Source: Planctomycetota bacterium
Lineage (GTDB): Bacteria > Planctomycetota > Planctomycetia > Pirellulales > Lacipirellulaceae
DNA: 13,105 nt
Reading direction: 5' to 3'
NCBI GenBank assembly: GCA_024278035.1
Contig: JAJRUA010000196.1
Coordinates: 1-13,105 of the forward strand
Part shown: piece after piece, positions 2,474 to 6,087 of the stretch
Position numbering within the stretch: the first letter of the stretch is position 1
Layout of the letters: each line of letters begins with the position of its first letter
Notes under the pieces: generated by a model
What the model was told of the DNA's origin: nothing
Database searches by the model: none
Seen by the model: only the letters and a program-made list of their open reading frames with translations
Program-made: the position numbers and the translations under genes

Positions 2474-2956
2474 TTACGAAAAATCCCATGCCTCTTGTTC
2501 GAGTTTCAGGAGGGCTGCTTTCGTCGGGAGACCCCCGCCGAAGCCGGTTAGTTTTCCATTGGAGCCAATGACTCGATGGCAAGGAATGATCACAGGGATC
2601 GGATTTCGACCGTTCGCCGCGCCGACGGCACGCATTGCCTTAGGTTTACCAAGCCGTGCGGCAATCTCTCCGTACGAAACCGTCTCGCCGTAGGGGACTT
2701 TTAGGAGCTGTTGGAGTACGCCCAACTGAAACGGCGTGCCGCTCGGCTTGAGCGGCAAGGAAAATGTTCGGAGCGACCCCGAAAAGTAATCGTTGAGTTG
2801 CGCCTTGGTCTCGGAAAAAATAGCATCGCGTAGTTCCCAGTCGGGCTCAGCGCGTCGACGTTTGGGGCCGTCAGGAAAACCGAGTTCTTGCAAGACGTAT
2901 TGATCTCCTACCAGCAGCAACTCGCCAATCGGTGTATCGAGGTAAGTGTAATTCAC
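2474..2956 (-). CDS. ogt: Methylated-DNA--[protein]-cysteine S-methyltransferase (Ogt type)
   Basis: This is a suicide repair enzyme that transfers the alkyl group from O6-alkylguanine (and O4-alkylthymine) in DNA to its own cysteine. The product is 160 residues, close to E. coli Ogt (about 171). The acceptor motif is PCHRV with Cys126. It is preceded by the winged-helix segment YGEIAARLGKPKAMRAVG, which includes the arginine-finger region, and by ANGRNP, and followed by GKLTGFGGGL. I chose the GTG start at 2956 because AGGAG lies 8 nt upstream and the protein then begins MNYTYLDTPIGELLLVG, the normal family start. A longer frame to 3028 would overlap the upstream gene and has no such ribosome site. 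It lies 17 nt after the Ada/AlkA fusion, so the two are co-transcribed; this supplies the O6-guanine repair activity that the fusion lacks. Confidence 0.95.
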   Translation of the reverse strand: MNYTYLDTPIGELLLVGDQYVLQELGFPDGPKRRRAEPDWELRDAIFSETKAQLNDYFSGSLRTFSLPLKPSGTPFQLGVLQQLLKVPYGETVSYGEIAARLGKPKAMRAVGAANGRNPIPVIIPCHRVIGSNGKLTGFGGGLPTKAALLKLEQEAWDFS

Positions 2957-2973
2957 GAGTTGATTCTCCTGAT

Positions 2974-4443
2974 TCAGGTGAGCAAGTTCCAGAGGTGCAT
3001 CGCCGCATAGGCGCGCCAGGGCCGCCACGATTCAGCATGTTTTGATAGTGTTTTCGAGGTTGCTTTCTTGCCTGGGGCAATCGCTTTAAGCAGACCGAGA
3101 TCCGAGGCGGGAAACGCATCGGGATCTTTTAAGACCCGCATCGCGACATATTGCACAGTCCACGGACCGATTCCAGGAATAGCTTGAAGACGCTGAGAAA
3201 ATTCCCCCGGCTCTTGAGCCGAGTTAAATTGAATCTCTCCCTGTTCGGTTGCCTTGGAAAGTTGCCGTATCGTCTCGACACGGCGTGTGGTGATCCCAAG
3301 GTTGTTCATGCGTGCTTTGGCAAGACGGGCCGGCGCAGGAAAAAAATGGGATAGCGTGCCAGTCGGGACAGCGTACCGGAGGCCGAGGGGGTTGCTTAAA
3401 AGATCGCCGTAGCGATGCACCAGTCGGCCGGCGAGTGTGGTTGCTCCTTTCACCGAAATTTGTTGGCCAAGGATTGCTCGCACGGTCAGCTCGAAACCGT
3501 TCCACGCACCAGGGACGCGCAGGCCCGGTTGCCGGCGAACCGAAGCGGCGAGACGCTTGTCTTGGCGAAGCATGTTGGCGATCTCTTGGATCGGCGCGTC
3601 AAGATCGAGTGCCATGCGCGCCGTCTGCGAGATCTCCAAGAGGTGTTCTGTCGCAATCGCATGAACCGTCATTGTCAGAAAACCGGCGAGCTTTGCTGGC
3701 CGAATTTCGACGATGCCTGGTTGGCCTCCAACCAGGACCGTTCTCGCGTACCGATCTCCGGCGACTTCTTCCACGCCTGGCGTCGCCCGTCCAGCCAGAA
3801 ACCGCAGCATGGCGTTCCAGTCGAAAGGCTTTTGGTAGGACAGTCGCAGCGACAGGCCCAATCCACAGTTGCCAGGATTGGTCTGACTGTGTTTGCGAAG
3901 CTCGCGAGGCGTCCGCTGATAGGTTTTGATAAATTGATCGTTGAAACGGCGAACACTTCCGTACCCGGCGGCCATGGCAACTTGAGTCATCGTCAAGCTC
4001 GTTTCATCGAGCAAGCGTTTGGCAAAATGAAGCCGTCCAGTTTGTGCCACCGCGGTTGGCGACGCTCCCAAATGCTTTTTGAACAACCGTCGTAGATGGC
4101 GATCAGTCACCCCAAGACGTGTTGCAAGCTGTGTGACATCGCTGTTCTCTAAAGCGCCTTCGGCAATGAGTCGCAGTCCACGCCGTACCGTGGTCGAGCT
4201 GCCATACCAAGCAGGCGAGCCGGGAGCACACTCGGGGCGACATCGTAAGCAAGGTCGAAAACCAGCCTCCGAGGCAGCCGCTGCGCTGGCAAAGAACGTG
4301 ACATTTTTCGCGAGCGGCATTTTGACAGGACAGACGGGGCGACAATAAATGCCAGTCGTCTTCACGGCAACAAAAAACCGCCCGTCGAACCGCGCATCGC
4401 GAGCCAATCGGGCCCGCTCACAAATTTTGTTATTCAACAGCAT
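2974..4443 (-). CDS. ada: Ada/AraC/AlkA fusion: adaptive-response regulator and 3-methyladenine DNA glycosylase II
   Basis: This 489-residue protein joins three parts of the adaptive response to DNA alkylation. Residues 1-75 form the Ada metal-binding domain: RFDGRFFVAVKTTGIYCRPVCP with zinc ligands Cys34, Cys38, Cys65 and Cys68. Cys34 aligns with E. coli Ada Cys38, which takes the methyl group from phosphotriesters. Residues about 85-185 are an AraC-type double HTH (TRLGVTDRHLRRLFKKHLGASP, split across two helices, then YGSVRRFNDQFIKTYQRTP). Residues about 198-310 are the AlkA N-terminal domain. Residues about 320-489 are the HhH-GPD glycosylase, with hairpin IPGIGPWTV and catalytic Asp448 in FPASDLGL. 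The Ada methyltransferase domain is absent; ogt follows 17 nt downstream. From family knowledge, methylated Cys34 would turn the protein into an activator of its own operon. An AdaA-AlkA fusion next to ogt is also known in mycobacteria. The ribosome site before the ATG is weak. Confidence 0.95.
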   Translation of the reverse strand: MLLNNKICERARLARDARFDGRFFVAVKTTGIYCRPVCPVKMPLAKNVTFFASAAAASEAGFRPCLRCRPECAPGSPAWYGSSTTVRRGLRLIAEGALENSDVTQLATRLGVTDRHLRRLFKKHLGASPTAVAQTGRLHFAKRLLDETSLTMTQVAMAAGYGSVRRFNDQFIKTYQRTPRELRKHSQTNPGNCGLGLSLRLSYQKPFDWNAMLRFLAGRATPGVEEVAGDRYARTVLVGGQPGIVEIRPAKLAGFLTMTVHAIATEHLLEISQTARMALDLDAPIQEIANMLRQDKRLAASVRRQPGLRVPGAWNGFELTVRAILGQQISVKGATTLAGRLVHRYGDLLSNPLGLRYAVPTGTLSHFFPAPARLAKARMNNLGITTRRVETIRQLSKATEQGEIQFNSAQEPGEFSQRLQAIPGIGPWTVQYVAMRVLKDPDAFPASDLGLLKAIAPGKKATSKTLSKHAESWRPWRAYAAMHLWNLLT

Positions 4444-4513
4444 GTTTTTTGCTTTCTATGCAGAAGTGTACCCAGCAAAGAAAGTAAAACTAGCCATATT
4501 CGGACCTCGTCAC

Positions 4514-4620
4514 GAGTGCTTGACAACCTCTTCGAGTTAGGGGACTGGCTGACAGAAGAACTTACTGCAAAGCAACTTCTGTCAGCCCACACCTGCACTT
4601 TGAATACGGACAAAGCACCA
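4514..4620. repeat. 107-bp MITE-like palindromic element, copy 2 (diverged)
   Basis: The same length and plan as the element at 2364-2470. The left end is GAGTGCTTGACAACCTCTT, matching the reverse complement of copy 1's right end (TAGTGCTTTGACAACTCTT) apart from small indels. The right end is GACAAAGCAC. The inner arms GGCTGACAGAAG (4547-4558) and CTTCTGTCAGCC (4576-4587) are a perfect 12-bp inverted repeat with a 17-nt loop, and the core CTGGCTGACAGAAG is shared with copy 1. The terminal TA seen in copy 1 is not kept. The element lies about 70 bp upstream of the ada start, so the two copies bracket the repair operon. Confidence 0.75.
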
Positions 4621-4629
4621 ACACCTAAA

Positions 4630-4849
4630 AGGTGGGCTCCCTGGAAACGAGACGCGACCTCAATCGAGGGGGCTTCAGGCGGTATAACCGGATGAGTCGG
4701 TGTAAATAGGGAAAGTTTCTAAAGTTAGCCCCCCATTTGAATCGAAACTAACTCTCGGAAGGGTTGTTCTCGACGACACGGCCACAGTGATTATTCACTC
4801 AGGCTAACCCCGTCGCTCGGAACAGACCTACCAAGGGGGGAGCCTGCCT
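4630..4849. ncRNA. Candidate structured RNA, about 220 nt, family not recognised
   Basis: The two ends pair: AGGTGGGCTCCC (4630-4641) with GGGAGCCTGCCT (4838-4849), 12 pairs including two G-U. Inside are a 7-bp stem GGGGGCT (4668-4674)/AGCCCCC (4727-4733) and a long 3' hairpin. That hairpin is built from CGACG/CGTCG (4771-4775/4811-4815), GGCC/GGCT (4780-4783/4802-4805) and AGTGA/TCACT (4786-4790/4795-4799) with loop TTAT. A small stem CCTC/GAGG lies at 4658-4669. Two mutually exclusive hairpins share ACCG at 4687-4690: it can pair with CGGT at 4680-4683 or CGGT at 4698-4701. This nested layout is more than palindrome-rich DNA usually gives. It does not match what I know of RNase P, tmRNA, 6S or SRP RNA. 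The strand is unproven, since no clear promoter or T-run terminator is visible; the plus reading is described here. Confidence 0.5.
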
Positions 4850-4870
4850 AAAGGAAGGCGTAAGGCCTTT

Positions 4871-4924
4871 GGCATAAGTTGCTAGTAATACTTGCTAGTG
4901 ACTTACGACCAACGACTTATTGCC
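4871..4924. repeat. Imperfect palindrome of short GTTG/ACTT-type units
   Basis: GGCATAAGT (4871-4879) pairs with ACTTATTGCC (4915-4924) with one bulged base. Between them lie direct and inverted copies of short units such as TTGCTAGT (4879-4886 and 4892-4899) and ACTTACGACCAACGACTTA. It resembles the two larger palindromes at 5131-5213 and 5304-5390 in style (repeated 6-8-bp words) but not closely in sequence. Confidence 0.5.
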
Positions 4925-4973
4925 TTCATTCGACACGCTCTCAGTGTGCAACTCGTGTTGCAAATCCTAGCGT

Positions 4974-5006
4974 TTTGTCTGTTTATTGATTGGATAGATA
5001 GACAAA
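4974..5006. repeat. 13-bp-stem hairpin
   Basis: The arms 4974-4986 and 4994-5006 pair along 13 positions (TTTGTCTGTTTAT against ATAGATAGACAAA, two of the pairs G-U as RNA) around a 7-nt loop. The right arm continues into GACAAAGCAC, the same ten bases that end MITE-like copy 2, so this may be the remnant of a further copy. It could equally be a terminator-like RNA hairpin, though no T-run follows. Confidence 0.55.
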
Positions 5007-5130
5007 GCACTTGGCGATGAGTGTACGGAAGTGTGAAAAATAGTTGCTTGGAATGGCTTATGCCTACATTCTCCAATTTAACGACTTTTGCCAATCTTCC
5101 AGTGCTTGCATCGCCGATAGGTTTTATACC

Positions 5131-5213
5131 GAGTTGTGAGTTGTAAGTTTTGAGCCGCAAGCTGACGAAGGAAAAAGCCTTTATCGCGACCCACGACTCG
5201 CAAGTTGCAACTC
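5131..5213. repeat. Palindromic intergenic repeat, copy A
   Basis: It starts GAGTTGTGAGTTGTAAGTTT and ends in the inverse sense with ACTCGCAAGTTGCAACTC. The middle is GACGAAGGAAAAAGCC. The same order of words (GAGTTGTGAGTT, TGAGCCGC, TGACGAAGGAAA, TCGCGACCC, ACTCGC) recurs 173 bp further on. The arms pair imperfectly. It is non-coding; the short open frame crossing both copies is not credible as a gene. Confidence 0.7.
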
Positions 5214-5303
5214 AACATGGACGGAGAGGATCAGAAGGACCTGAGCCAACCCAACATGCGATTTATAGGATGCCCCGACCCAGGTACGCATTCGGCATAG
5301 ATG

Positions 5304-5390
5304 GGTTGCGAGTTGTGAGTTATGAGCCGCGAGTTGACGAAGGAAATTCCTTCGCCGTTTTCTCGCGACCCGTAACTCGCGGCTCGCAAC
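5304..5390. repeat. Palindromic intergenic repeat, copy B
   Basis: This is the better preserved copy. It is bounded by GTTGCGAG (5304-5311) and CTCGCAAC (5383-5390), with arms of nearly 30 bp that pair with few mismatches. At the centre lies the perfect palindrome CGAAGGAAATTCCTTCG (5338-5354). It shares the word order GAGTTGTGAGTTATGAGCCGC, GACGAAGGAAA, CGCGACCC, AACTCGC with copy A. The unit looks built from the 7-8-bp word GCGAGTT(G) and its complement. Confidence 0.75.
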
Positions 5391-5459
5391 ACGTCGCCTA
5401 CCCGCTGGCAGAAGGGAAGCAAGTTGCCAGGCCGATGCACTAACTAGAGGGGTGTCCAG

Positions 5460-5474
5460 TCCGCCAAAGGCGGA
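5460..5474. promoter_or_regulatory. Short perfect palindrome upstream of the HTH-receiver gene, possible operator
   Basis: TCCGCC (5460-5465) and GGCGGA (5469-5474) form a perfect 6-bp inverted repeat with a 3-bp spacer, 40 bp before the ATG of a DNA-binding protein. Position and symmetry suit an autoregulatory site or a hairpin in the mRNA leader. No function is shown by sequence alone. Confidence 0.35.
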
Positions 5475-5514
5475 TTGACCAGTGTCAACGCAAGAATATA
5501 TTGGAGTACCCGTG

Positions 5515-6087
5515 ATGAAGGTCTTTACTACTGGTCAGGTCGCTAAGATCTGCAAAGTGGCCCCCCGCACGGTCAGCAAGTGGTTTGACTCAGGGCGTTT
5601 GAAGGGCTATCGCATTCCCGGTTCCCAGGACCGGAGAATTCCCCGCGAATACTTGATTAAGTTTCTCAAAGAGCACGGCATGCCGCTTGGCGATCTTGAG
5701 GATGAGGCCATGGCCAAAATCCTGATTGTTGCTCAAGATCAAGTCTTGATCGAGAATCTCAAGCGAGAGCTGCCGCCCCAGAGGTCATTCAAAACTTCGA
5801 TGGCCGCAAGCGGTTTTGAAGCTGGCATCCAAGCCGAAAGCTTCCACCCCGACTGCATTATCGTCGACTTTTCGATCGGACAAGTCGAAGCTCTGCAGAT
5901 TTGCCAAAATCTGCGCCGCAGCAGCGATTTTGCTGAAACCATTCTGATCGCACTACTACCGGACGACGGTACCACTGCCAGCTTCGACCGTTCGAGTATC
6001 AACGAGACGTTCAAAAAACCGTTCGACGCCGCTCTGCTGGCCGAACGACTACGAACTCTCATTGGTAGCAAAAAAGAATTGGTCTGA
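5515..6087 (+). CDS. Excisionase/MerR-type HTH protein with C-terminal degenerate receiver domain
   Basis: A 190-residue probable transcription regulator. Residues 3-55 are a winged HTH of the excisionase (HTH_17/MerR-like) kind: TTGQVAKICKVAPRTVSKWF, then GRLKGYRIPGSQDRRIPRE, a wing-like stretch rich in Arg. Residues 67-185 have the alternating pattern of a response-regulator receiver. The phospho-acceptor position is kept (Asp118 in CIIVDFS), as is Lys158 before Pro159 (FKKPFD). The acidic pair that binds magnesium is replaced (IVAQD instead of IVDDD), and the switch Thr/Ser is Leu (ILIALLP). The receiver may therefore not be phosphorylated normally. I chose ATG 5515 because GGAG lies 8 nt upstream and HTH proteins of this kind start MKVFTTGQVA; an in-frame GTG at 5482 would add eleven unconserved residues. 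No kinase is adjacent. I recognise the type from planctomycetes; its target is unknown. Confidence 0.85.
   Translation: MKVFTTGQVAKICKVAPRTVSKWFDSGRLKGYRIPGSQDRRIPREYLIKFLKEHGMPLGDLEDEAMAKILIVAQDQVLIENLKRELPPQRSFKTSMAASGFEAGIQAESFHPDCIIVDFSIGQVEALQICQNLRRSSDFAETILIALLPDDGTTASFDRSSINETFKKPFDAALLAERLRTLIGSKKELV

Follow-up and report, generated by a model that had tools for sequence, protein, structure and literature searches.

A large, conserved and structured RNA of roughly 500-800 nt was found directly upstream of a regulator gene in a stretch of 13,105 nt of planctomycete DNA, hereafter the window. An earlier note, made from the letters alone, had singled out positions 4630-4849 as an unrecognised structured RNA. 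This segment is on balance probably the 5' domain of the larger RNA, which we read from comparative analysis as the leader of the mRNA of a BldC-like/receiver regulator. The RNA displays sequence conservation, covarying helices, a preference for the plus strand, one copy per matching genome and a near-constant place before the gene. Its role is most likely the control of the regulator gene directly downstream. From the motif CUAAAG to the start codon the distance is about 450-810 nt in relatives and about 800 nt in the window, where two inserted repeats are included. The following features were recognised.

4674-4710, plus strand: 5' flank with ACCGG (and a TACGACT motif in relatives), promoter-like or the RNA 5' end
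4711-4760, plus strand: A core with GAAAGUUUCUAAAGU, C-run, AUCGAAACUA and CUCGGAA; sequence conservation in alignments and match to model R2
4761-4828, plus strand: A hairpin, the three-segment 3' hairpin of the earlier note; swap test and pair counts
4833-4848, plus strand: B motif AAGGGGGGAGCCUGCC; GGGGGG kept in 68 aligned sequences
5006-5115, plus strand: C domain, a hairpin at about 5048-5076 and two enclosing pairings; swap tests, pairs read by eye
5133-5211, no strand assigned: first copy of the inserted repeat, separating C from D, absent from most aligned relatives
5228-5247, plus strand: D1 hairpin GGAUCAG-AAGGAC-CUGAGCC; model R1, helix 2, 93.6% of cells paired
5272-5453, plus strand: D3, helices 3 and 4, pairing CCCC (5273-5276) with GGGG (5449-5452) and GCAU(U)CGG (5288-5295) with CCGAUGC (5432-5438)
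5305-5390, no strand assigned: second copy of the inserted repeat, within the loop of D3; repeat comparison
5457-5477, plus strand: E hairpin CAGUCCGCC-AAA-GGCGGAUUG, 5' of the ribosome site; swap test, pairs by eye
5490-5514, plus strand: conserved stretch up to the start codon, including ribosome site GGAG; conservation profile
5515-6087, plus strand: regulator gene, 190 aa, HTH_17 (BldC-like) and receiver domain; domain search

Conservation of the segment and its borders

The source of the window belongs to the order Pirellulales. A set of 80 loci was collected via the next plus-strand gene, the regulator. One of these (L001, an environmental assembly) is 99.9% identical to the window over 4440-5520 and encodes a regulator protein that is 100% identical. 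An iterated HMM of the segment matched 71 of the 80 loci, always upstream of the regulator gene (one strand searched). Five of the nine loci without a match had less than 520 nt of upstream sequence, while the other four (L036, L048, L074 and L075) had ample upstream sequence and gave no A domain by HMM or covariance model, which counts against a leader. A second conserved block was found between the segment and the gene; it is split in the window by both repeat copies, and matches to an HMM of this block extended into the first 60 model positions in 50 of the 80 loci (one strand searched). The block HMM as a whole matched 80/80 loci, a figure that overstates its spread since the model includes about 30 coding bases, and L018, L046 and L058 match by its end only.

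The conserved core consists of CUAAAGU, a C-rich stretch, CGAAACUA and CGGAAGG, with a variable hairpin and GGGGGG after it. The 68 sequences with the G-run were obtained from 71 by leaving out L051, L073 and L079, which are without it, and a set of 66 resulted from further removal of L001 and L008, which carry inserts. Ungapped conservation exceeded background from about 45-50 nt 5' of CUAAAG (window ~4670), and the flank at 4674-4710 held 0.2-0.44 bit/position against 0.03-0.11 farther upstream (66 loci). Within the 46 nt 5' of CUAAAG the tetramer ACCG, found in the window at 4687-4690 and shared there by the two possible competing hairpins of the earlier note, was enriched (26/66 sequences vs 9.6 in letter shuffles). 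The border of about 220 nt drawn in the earlier note had to be redrawn on both sides, as conservation starts at about 4670 and further conserved blocks reach the start codon at 5515.

Of 200 dinucleotide shuffles, 198 folded less well than the plus strand of 4625-4860 (z -2.9, moderate for a single sequence); for the minus strand the count was 197 of 200 (z -2.4). The stems described in the earlier note are physically present in the window sequence. The description of the segment as a structured RNA of no known family holds as to RNA and as to the lack of an Rfam family match, and fails as to its borders and its outer stem.

Covariation in the A domain

As base-by-base alignment fails in the variable parts, a strand-swap test was used in which the pairing of each strand with its own partner was set against that with the partners of other species. 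Repeated strand pairs and sequences without anchors were left out. The test can be inflated by relatedness and composition, and the anchors were set after viewing the sequences; pairings used as controls had z of -0.1 (n=20) and +0.5 (n=21). The A hairpin paired at -13.7 kcal with its own partner against -8.4 kcal with swapped partners (n=58, z -14.4, reached by 0/2000 permutations). Pair counts were made on 64 distinct rows, each less than 85% identical to the rows used for model building, after removal of rows from the models' training genomes and repeats of one genome. Here 64.8% of cells were paired vs 49.9% in shuffles, and the covariation score was 0.425, against 0.215 for shuffled controls and a maximum of 0.159 for slid ones (0/500). 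Double changes were seen in 14 of 14 pairs, a count that 162 of 500 shuffles also reach and that is not decisive. The three-segment 3' hairpin proposed at 4761-4828 is accordingly conserved with compensatory changes. Model R2 of the A domain gave one match per source in 76/82 sources and 113.7 bits in the window at 4693-4850.

The 12-bp closing stem fared differently. It is strong in the window (-26.0 kcal/mol as an isolated duplex) but showed no conservation when the GGGGGG region was swap-tested with the 60-nt stretch between -106 and -46 relative to CUAAAG (n=66, z -0.9, reached by 350/2000 permutations). Its 5' arm (-89 to -74 from CUAAAG) held about 0.1 bit, near background, and, as conservation fades about 45-50 nt upstream of the core, lies outside the element. 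There was no support either for the C-run pairing to the 3' GGGGGG (n=62, z +1.5) or for the 26 nt 5' of CUAAAG pairing to the 21 nt 3' of it (z -1.2). The nested 7-bp G/C stem of the earlier note uses GCCCCCC at 4728-4734, where L001 has GACCCCC. Position 4729 is C in the window and A in near-identical L001 and most close relatives aligned, which is a variant or an assembly error.

The alignments from R1 and R2 are fitted to their own models and lean towards them, for which the slid and shuffled controls partly allow. An R-scape-like covariation analysis, applied with a tree null to a MAFFT alignment of the entire element made from sequence alone (n=66), gave best pairs of E ~5 or worse, mostly non-base-pairs. 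RNAalifold gave no structure on large sets, with no pair predicted for the large A set, and a structure was obtained for 21 closer A sequences and for 24 D sequences.

Covarying helices down to the start codon

A second covarying domain, unseen in the earlier note, was found at 5213-5454 (D domain). Its covariance model R1 was built on 24 training sequences, in which 14 of 24 pairs were changed on both sides, and scored 48.5 bits in the window at 5216-5307. Among 42 clean and distinct rows, all less than 85% identical to the R1 training rows, 18 of 24 pairs were changed on both sides (116 cells vs 31 in shuffles) with a score of 0.344 vs 0.156 shuffled and at most 0.081 slid (0/500). In D3, double changes were seen in 14/15 pairs of helices 3 and 4, and the swap test gave z -8.6 for the D3 helix (n=61, 0/2000). 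The D3 pairs of the window were placed by eye, because R1 aligned 5216-5307 only.

In C, the hairpin and an enclosing helix each gave z -4.2 (n=22 and 23, 0/2000), with 23 of 66 sequences having the anchors and 43 left out. The enclosing pairings, AGCACU (5006-5011) with 5101-5106 and GGCGAUG (5013-5019) with 5109-5115, cross one another and form either a pseudoknot or alternatives. The E hairpin gave z -3.4 (n=65, 1/2000). In the helices G-U exceeded A-C by 63:28 in D and 138:51 in A, with only 40:31 in the training set; a plus-strand RNA would be expected to show such an excess. The earlier note had held that homologues without compensatory changes in the stems would speak against it; homologues with such changes were found, for the 3' hairpin and for the D domain.

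The last 28 nt before the start codon were conserved at 0.2 to 1.2 bits/position (77 loci). Between D3 and these 28 nt the ungapped profile was at background, which counts against a leader, as the conservation next to the start codon may then reflect no more than the ribosome site.

Linkage to the regulator gene

Of 146 genomes sampled from the order Pirellulales, 97 had a single R1 match each and the other 49 had none under strict filters, the latter being a point against a leader. The D domain lay on the contig and strand of the regulator gene in 46 of 47 genomes compared, the two being on different contigs in the 47th. The D match ended 62-98 nt before the first codon in 44 of these 46 genomes and 184 and 196 nt before it in the other two. 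Two marks of structured leaders were found, a fixed same-strand upstream place (46/47 genomes) and covarying secondary structure (pair counts and swap tests). The near-constant place, the strand, the conservation at the start codon and the closeness of the last helix to the ribosome site all argue for a leader that controls the gene. The neighbours are less constant. SMC lay within 4 kb upstream in 31/62 loci and MoaC downstream in 32/65, so the RNA follows the regulator more faithfully than these genes do. The earlier note had argued from the 665 bp to the nearest gene that the RNA was free-standing. As this gap holds conserved blocks that travel with the gene, the last of them close to it, the argument from distance loses its support.

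The main alternative, possible but less probable, is that the RNA comes from a separate noncoding gene of ~400-700 nt, which has a promoter of its own and a 3' end after D, acts in trans and stays next to the regulator gene through a functional pairing of the two. A compact multi-domain fold with long invariant unpaired stretches would suit such an RNA. A promoter-like site at 5475-5502 between RNA and gene, found once vs 0.8 times expected in shuffles and hence at chance level, keeps this alternative open together with the background conservation just after D3. Against it stand the 46/46 one-contig cases in which the RNA lies just upstream on the strand of the regulator, the single match in all 97 matching genomes and a terminator scan of 4400-5700, in which the one site found was inside an inserted repeat.

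It is unlikely that A-B and C-D-E are two molecules side by side, the first a 5' RNA and the second a leader of its own. No long-range pairing of A-B with C-D was seen, and the four loci without A still match the D-side model. The two parts nevertheless keep company, with A present in 71 of the 75 loci having more than ~520 nt upstream of the gene and D matched, or trained on, in many of those. A conserved DNA-level element made up of regulator or promoter binding sites would account for the ACCGG and TACGACT stretches, conserved without shown pairing, but is very improbable given the compensatory changes and the G-U excess. Equally far-fetched is a conserved small protein gene, for which no support was found beyond the existence of stop-free runs (median 90 codons in any frame, whole stretch) and against which the distances speak, being spread modulo 3 as 26/19/21 for CUAAAG-GGGGGG and 18/23/25 for CUAAAG-ATG.

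The regulator and a possible mechanism

The BldC-like helix-turn-helix of the regulator was matched at E 4e-8, below the family cut-off. BldC of Streptomyces shares this fold, from which the regulator here differs by its fused receiver domain, and we know of no RNA leader of this kind at bldC. Read by eye, the receiver start shows ILIVAQDQ where the consensus has an acidic pair, so ordinary phosphorylation may not apply.

In a sample of the class Planctomycetia some match to the regulator was found in 297/297 genomes, with a best E below 1e-60 in 282 and of 3e-49 to 4e-33 in the remaining 15, the level of a more distant relative. Identity dropped stepwise, from 81-96% to 66-70%, and a separate search of 28 genomes gave 57-66%. 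Beside the 57-66% copy, these 28 genomes also have a remoter relative of the regulator, mostly at 33-38% over most of its length and in one case at 46%. The regulator was matched at no less than 67% in 12 of 199 genomes of the phylum; full-length matches then dropped to 45% or less, with short helix-turn-helix matches of up to 66%.

If the RNA is the leader that we favour, transcription would start at about 4690-4711 and read through the RNA into the regulator gene. The output of regulator would then be set by the fold, whose last strong helix stops 62-98 nt 5' of the first codon. Binding of a ligand, either the regulator protein itself in a feedback loop or some other ligand, would alter access to the ribosome site or cause early termination. 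Feedback by the regulator protein would, given a leader, be a plausible if rather unlikely arrangement. In A and B, the unpaired stretches that do not vary resemble binding or contact sites, and may serve as such.

Leaders of such length are unusual, which speaks against this reading; riboswitches and protein-binding leaders are normally much shorter. Elaborate conserved folds in large RNAs are rare in bacteria and several proved to have unexpected roles. Here such an RNA, absent from Rfam 15, lies next to a regulator gene with strong conservation of its own in the class, and a leader function would give the planctomycetes, in which little is known of gene control, a large RNA-based control point. 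The fetched loci include cultured strains (Blastopirellula marina DSM 3645, Lacipirellula limnantheis, Bythopirellula polymerisocia and Botrimarina species), so transcript, structure and effect are directly testable.

Comparison with known RNAs

The comparison with Rfam suggested in the earlier note gave no Rfam 15 family at cut-off in the window. Five matches at E up to 5 were all below cut-off, none of them within 4630-4849. Six relatives likewise had no Rfam family at cut-off, and 17 loci, other groups among them, had none at E up to 0.1. SRP RNA was covered through these scans, with no family at cut-off. The earlier note could match the segment to neither RNase P RNA, tmRNA nor 6S RNA, and this was borne out in each case. 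RF00010 (RNase P RNA) was found once per genome in 9/9 genomes and had no match in the window or in the scanned loci, and in genome G001, where both places were listed, the place of the RNase P RNA differs from that of this RNA. ARAGORN found 0 tRNA or tmRNA genes in the window. 6S RNA is the single-copy structured RNA of general regulation that would be expected, and the RNA here is several times longer and without an RF00013 match. The RF00013 model matched 0/6 Pirellulales genomes and 5/14 control genomes; this does not show 6S RNA to be absent, and invites, without supporting it, the idea that this RNA replaces 6S.

OLE, GOLLD and ROOL are large, elaborately folded RNAs conserved in limited bacterial groups. 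The present RNA is like them in size class, fold and limited spread and differs in being tied to one regulator gene and in having no Rfam match. It resembles riboswitches and protein-binding leaders in its place before a gene, its covarying fold and its closeness to the ribosome site. Unlike these it matches no known ligand class, precedes a transcription regulator and has a transcript that is presumed.

No published description of this RNA was met in the limited literature searched, and the main text of PMC11109978, PMC8632094 and PMC6429828 gave 0 hits to planctomycete words. The sole printed candidate met was the Rhodopirellula-1 motif, which appears in a table of PMC2864571 for Planctomycetes and Proteobacteria as probably cis-regulatory and without an Rfam entry; compared by that table row alone, identity or overlap with the present RNA is possible.

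Inserted repeats and neighbouring genes

The repeat at 5133-5211 and 5305-5390 is ~80-86 nt long, can form a long hairpin and lies in variable loops of the RNA; it also occurs in L008. A sub-threshold Rfam match to MIR1883 on the minus strand at 5301-5394 coincides with one copy. Another, related pair of repeats that form hairpins, ~69-70% identical, was observed at 2363-2471 and about 4510-4620, with its end near the RNA start. On the minus strand at 2474-4443, in the stretch from SMC to the RNA, the window encodes an O6-methylguanine methyltransferase and an Ada/AraC-AlkA fusion. As this pair was present there in 1/62 loci only (L001), it is probably a recent insertion.

Traces beyond the order

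Similarity searches of phage and plasmid records gave no match. Upstream regions from other groups, defined by regulator identity, were scanned at -560 to -300 for the motif YNAAG[UA]-N12-26-CGA-N4-12-(C/U)(A/G)G, which was chosen after seeing these sequences. It was found in 19/20 regions of the 67-70% group (shuffles mean 3.0, max 7), 9/12 of the 62-66% group (1.8, max 5) and 8/15 of the 57-62% group (1.5, max 5). A core HMM of the 67-70% group alone matched 14 of 41 Pirellulales regions, some from one genome, at 8 bits and at -620 to -557 (4/820 shuffles). With the 62-66% group added to the model this rose to 19/41 (1/820 shuffles). A core HMM of Pirellulales and the 67-70% group matched 3/13 regions in the 62-66% group (0/260 shuffles), and one of all three groups matched 0/15 in the 57-62% group. 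On 48 upstream loci of other groups, with an E limit of 10, R2 matched weakly in 6 cases (best E 0.005), in one of them (L145) on the wrong strand, and R1 over a phylum sample matched 12/392 genomes under strict filters. From the motif, core HMM and R2 results, relatives of the RNA are likely in two further groups of the class and doubtful in the 57-62% group. We infer Planctomycetales, Isosphaerales and Gemmatales as the order names of these other groups.

A broader reading is that a single-copy RNA occurs in all orders of Planctomycetia, one-to-one with the BldC-like/receiver regulator, as an RNA-protein unit that acts beyond its own gene in bacteria without detected 6S RNA. This we regard as improbable. 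In four loci at 57-58% regulator identity (L165, L166, L170 and L172) a conserved-looking stretch with ACCGG repeats, CACGGAAGGCACGUC and CCGGAACGAUCA was observed about 490-610 nt before the gene.
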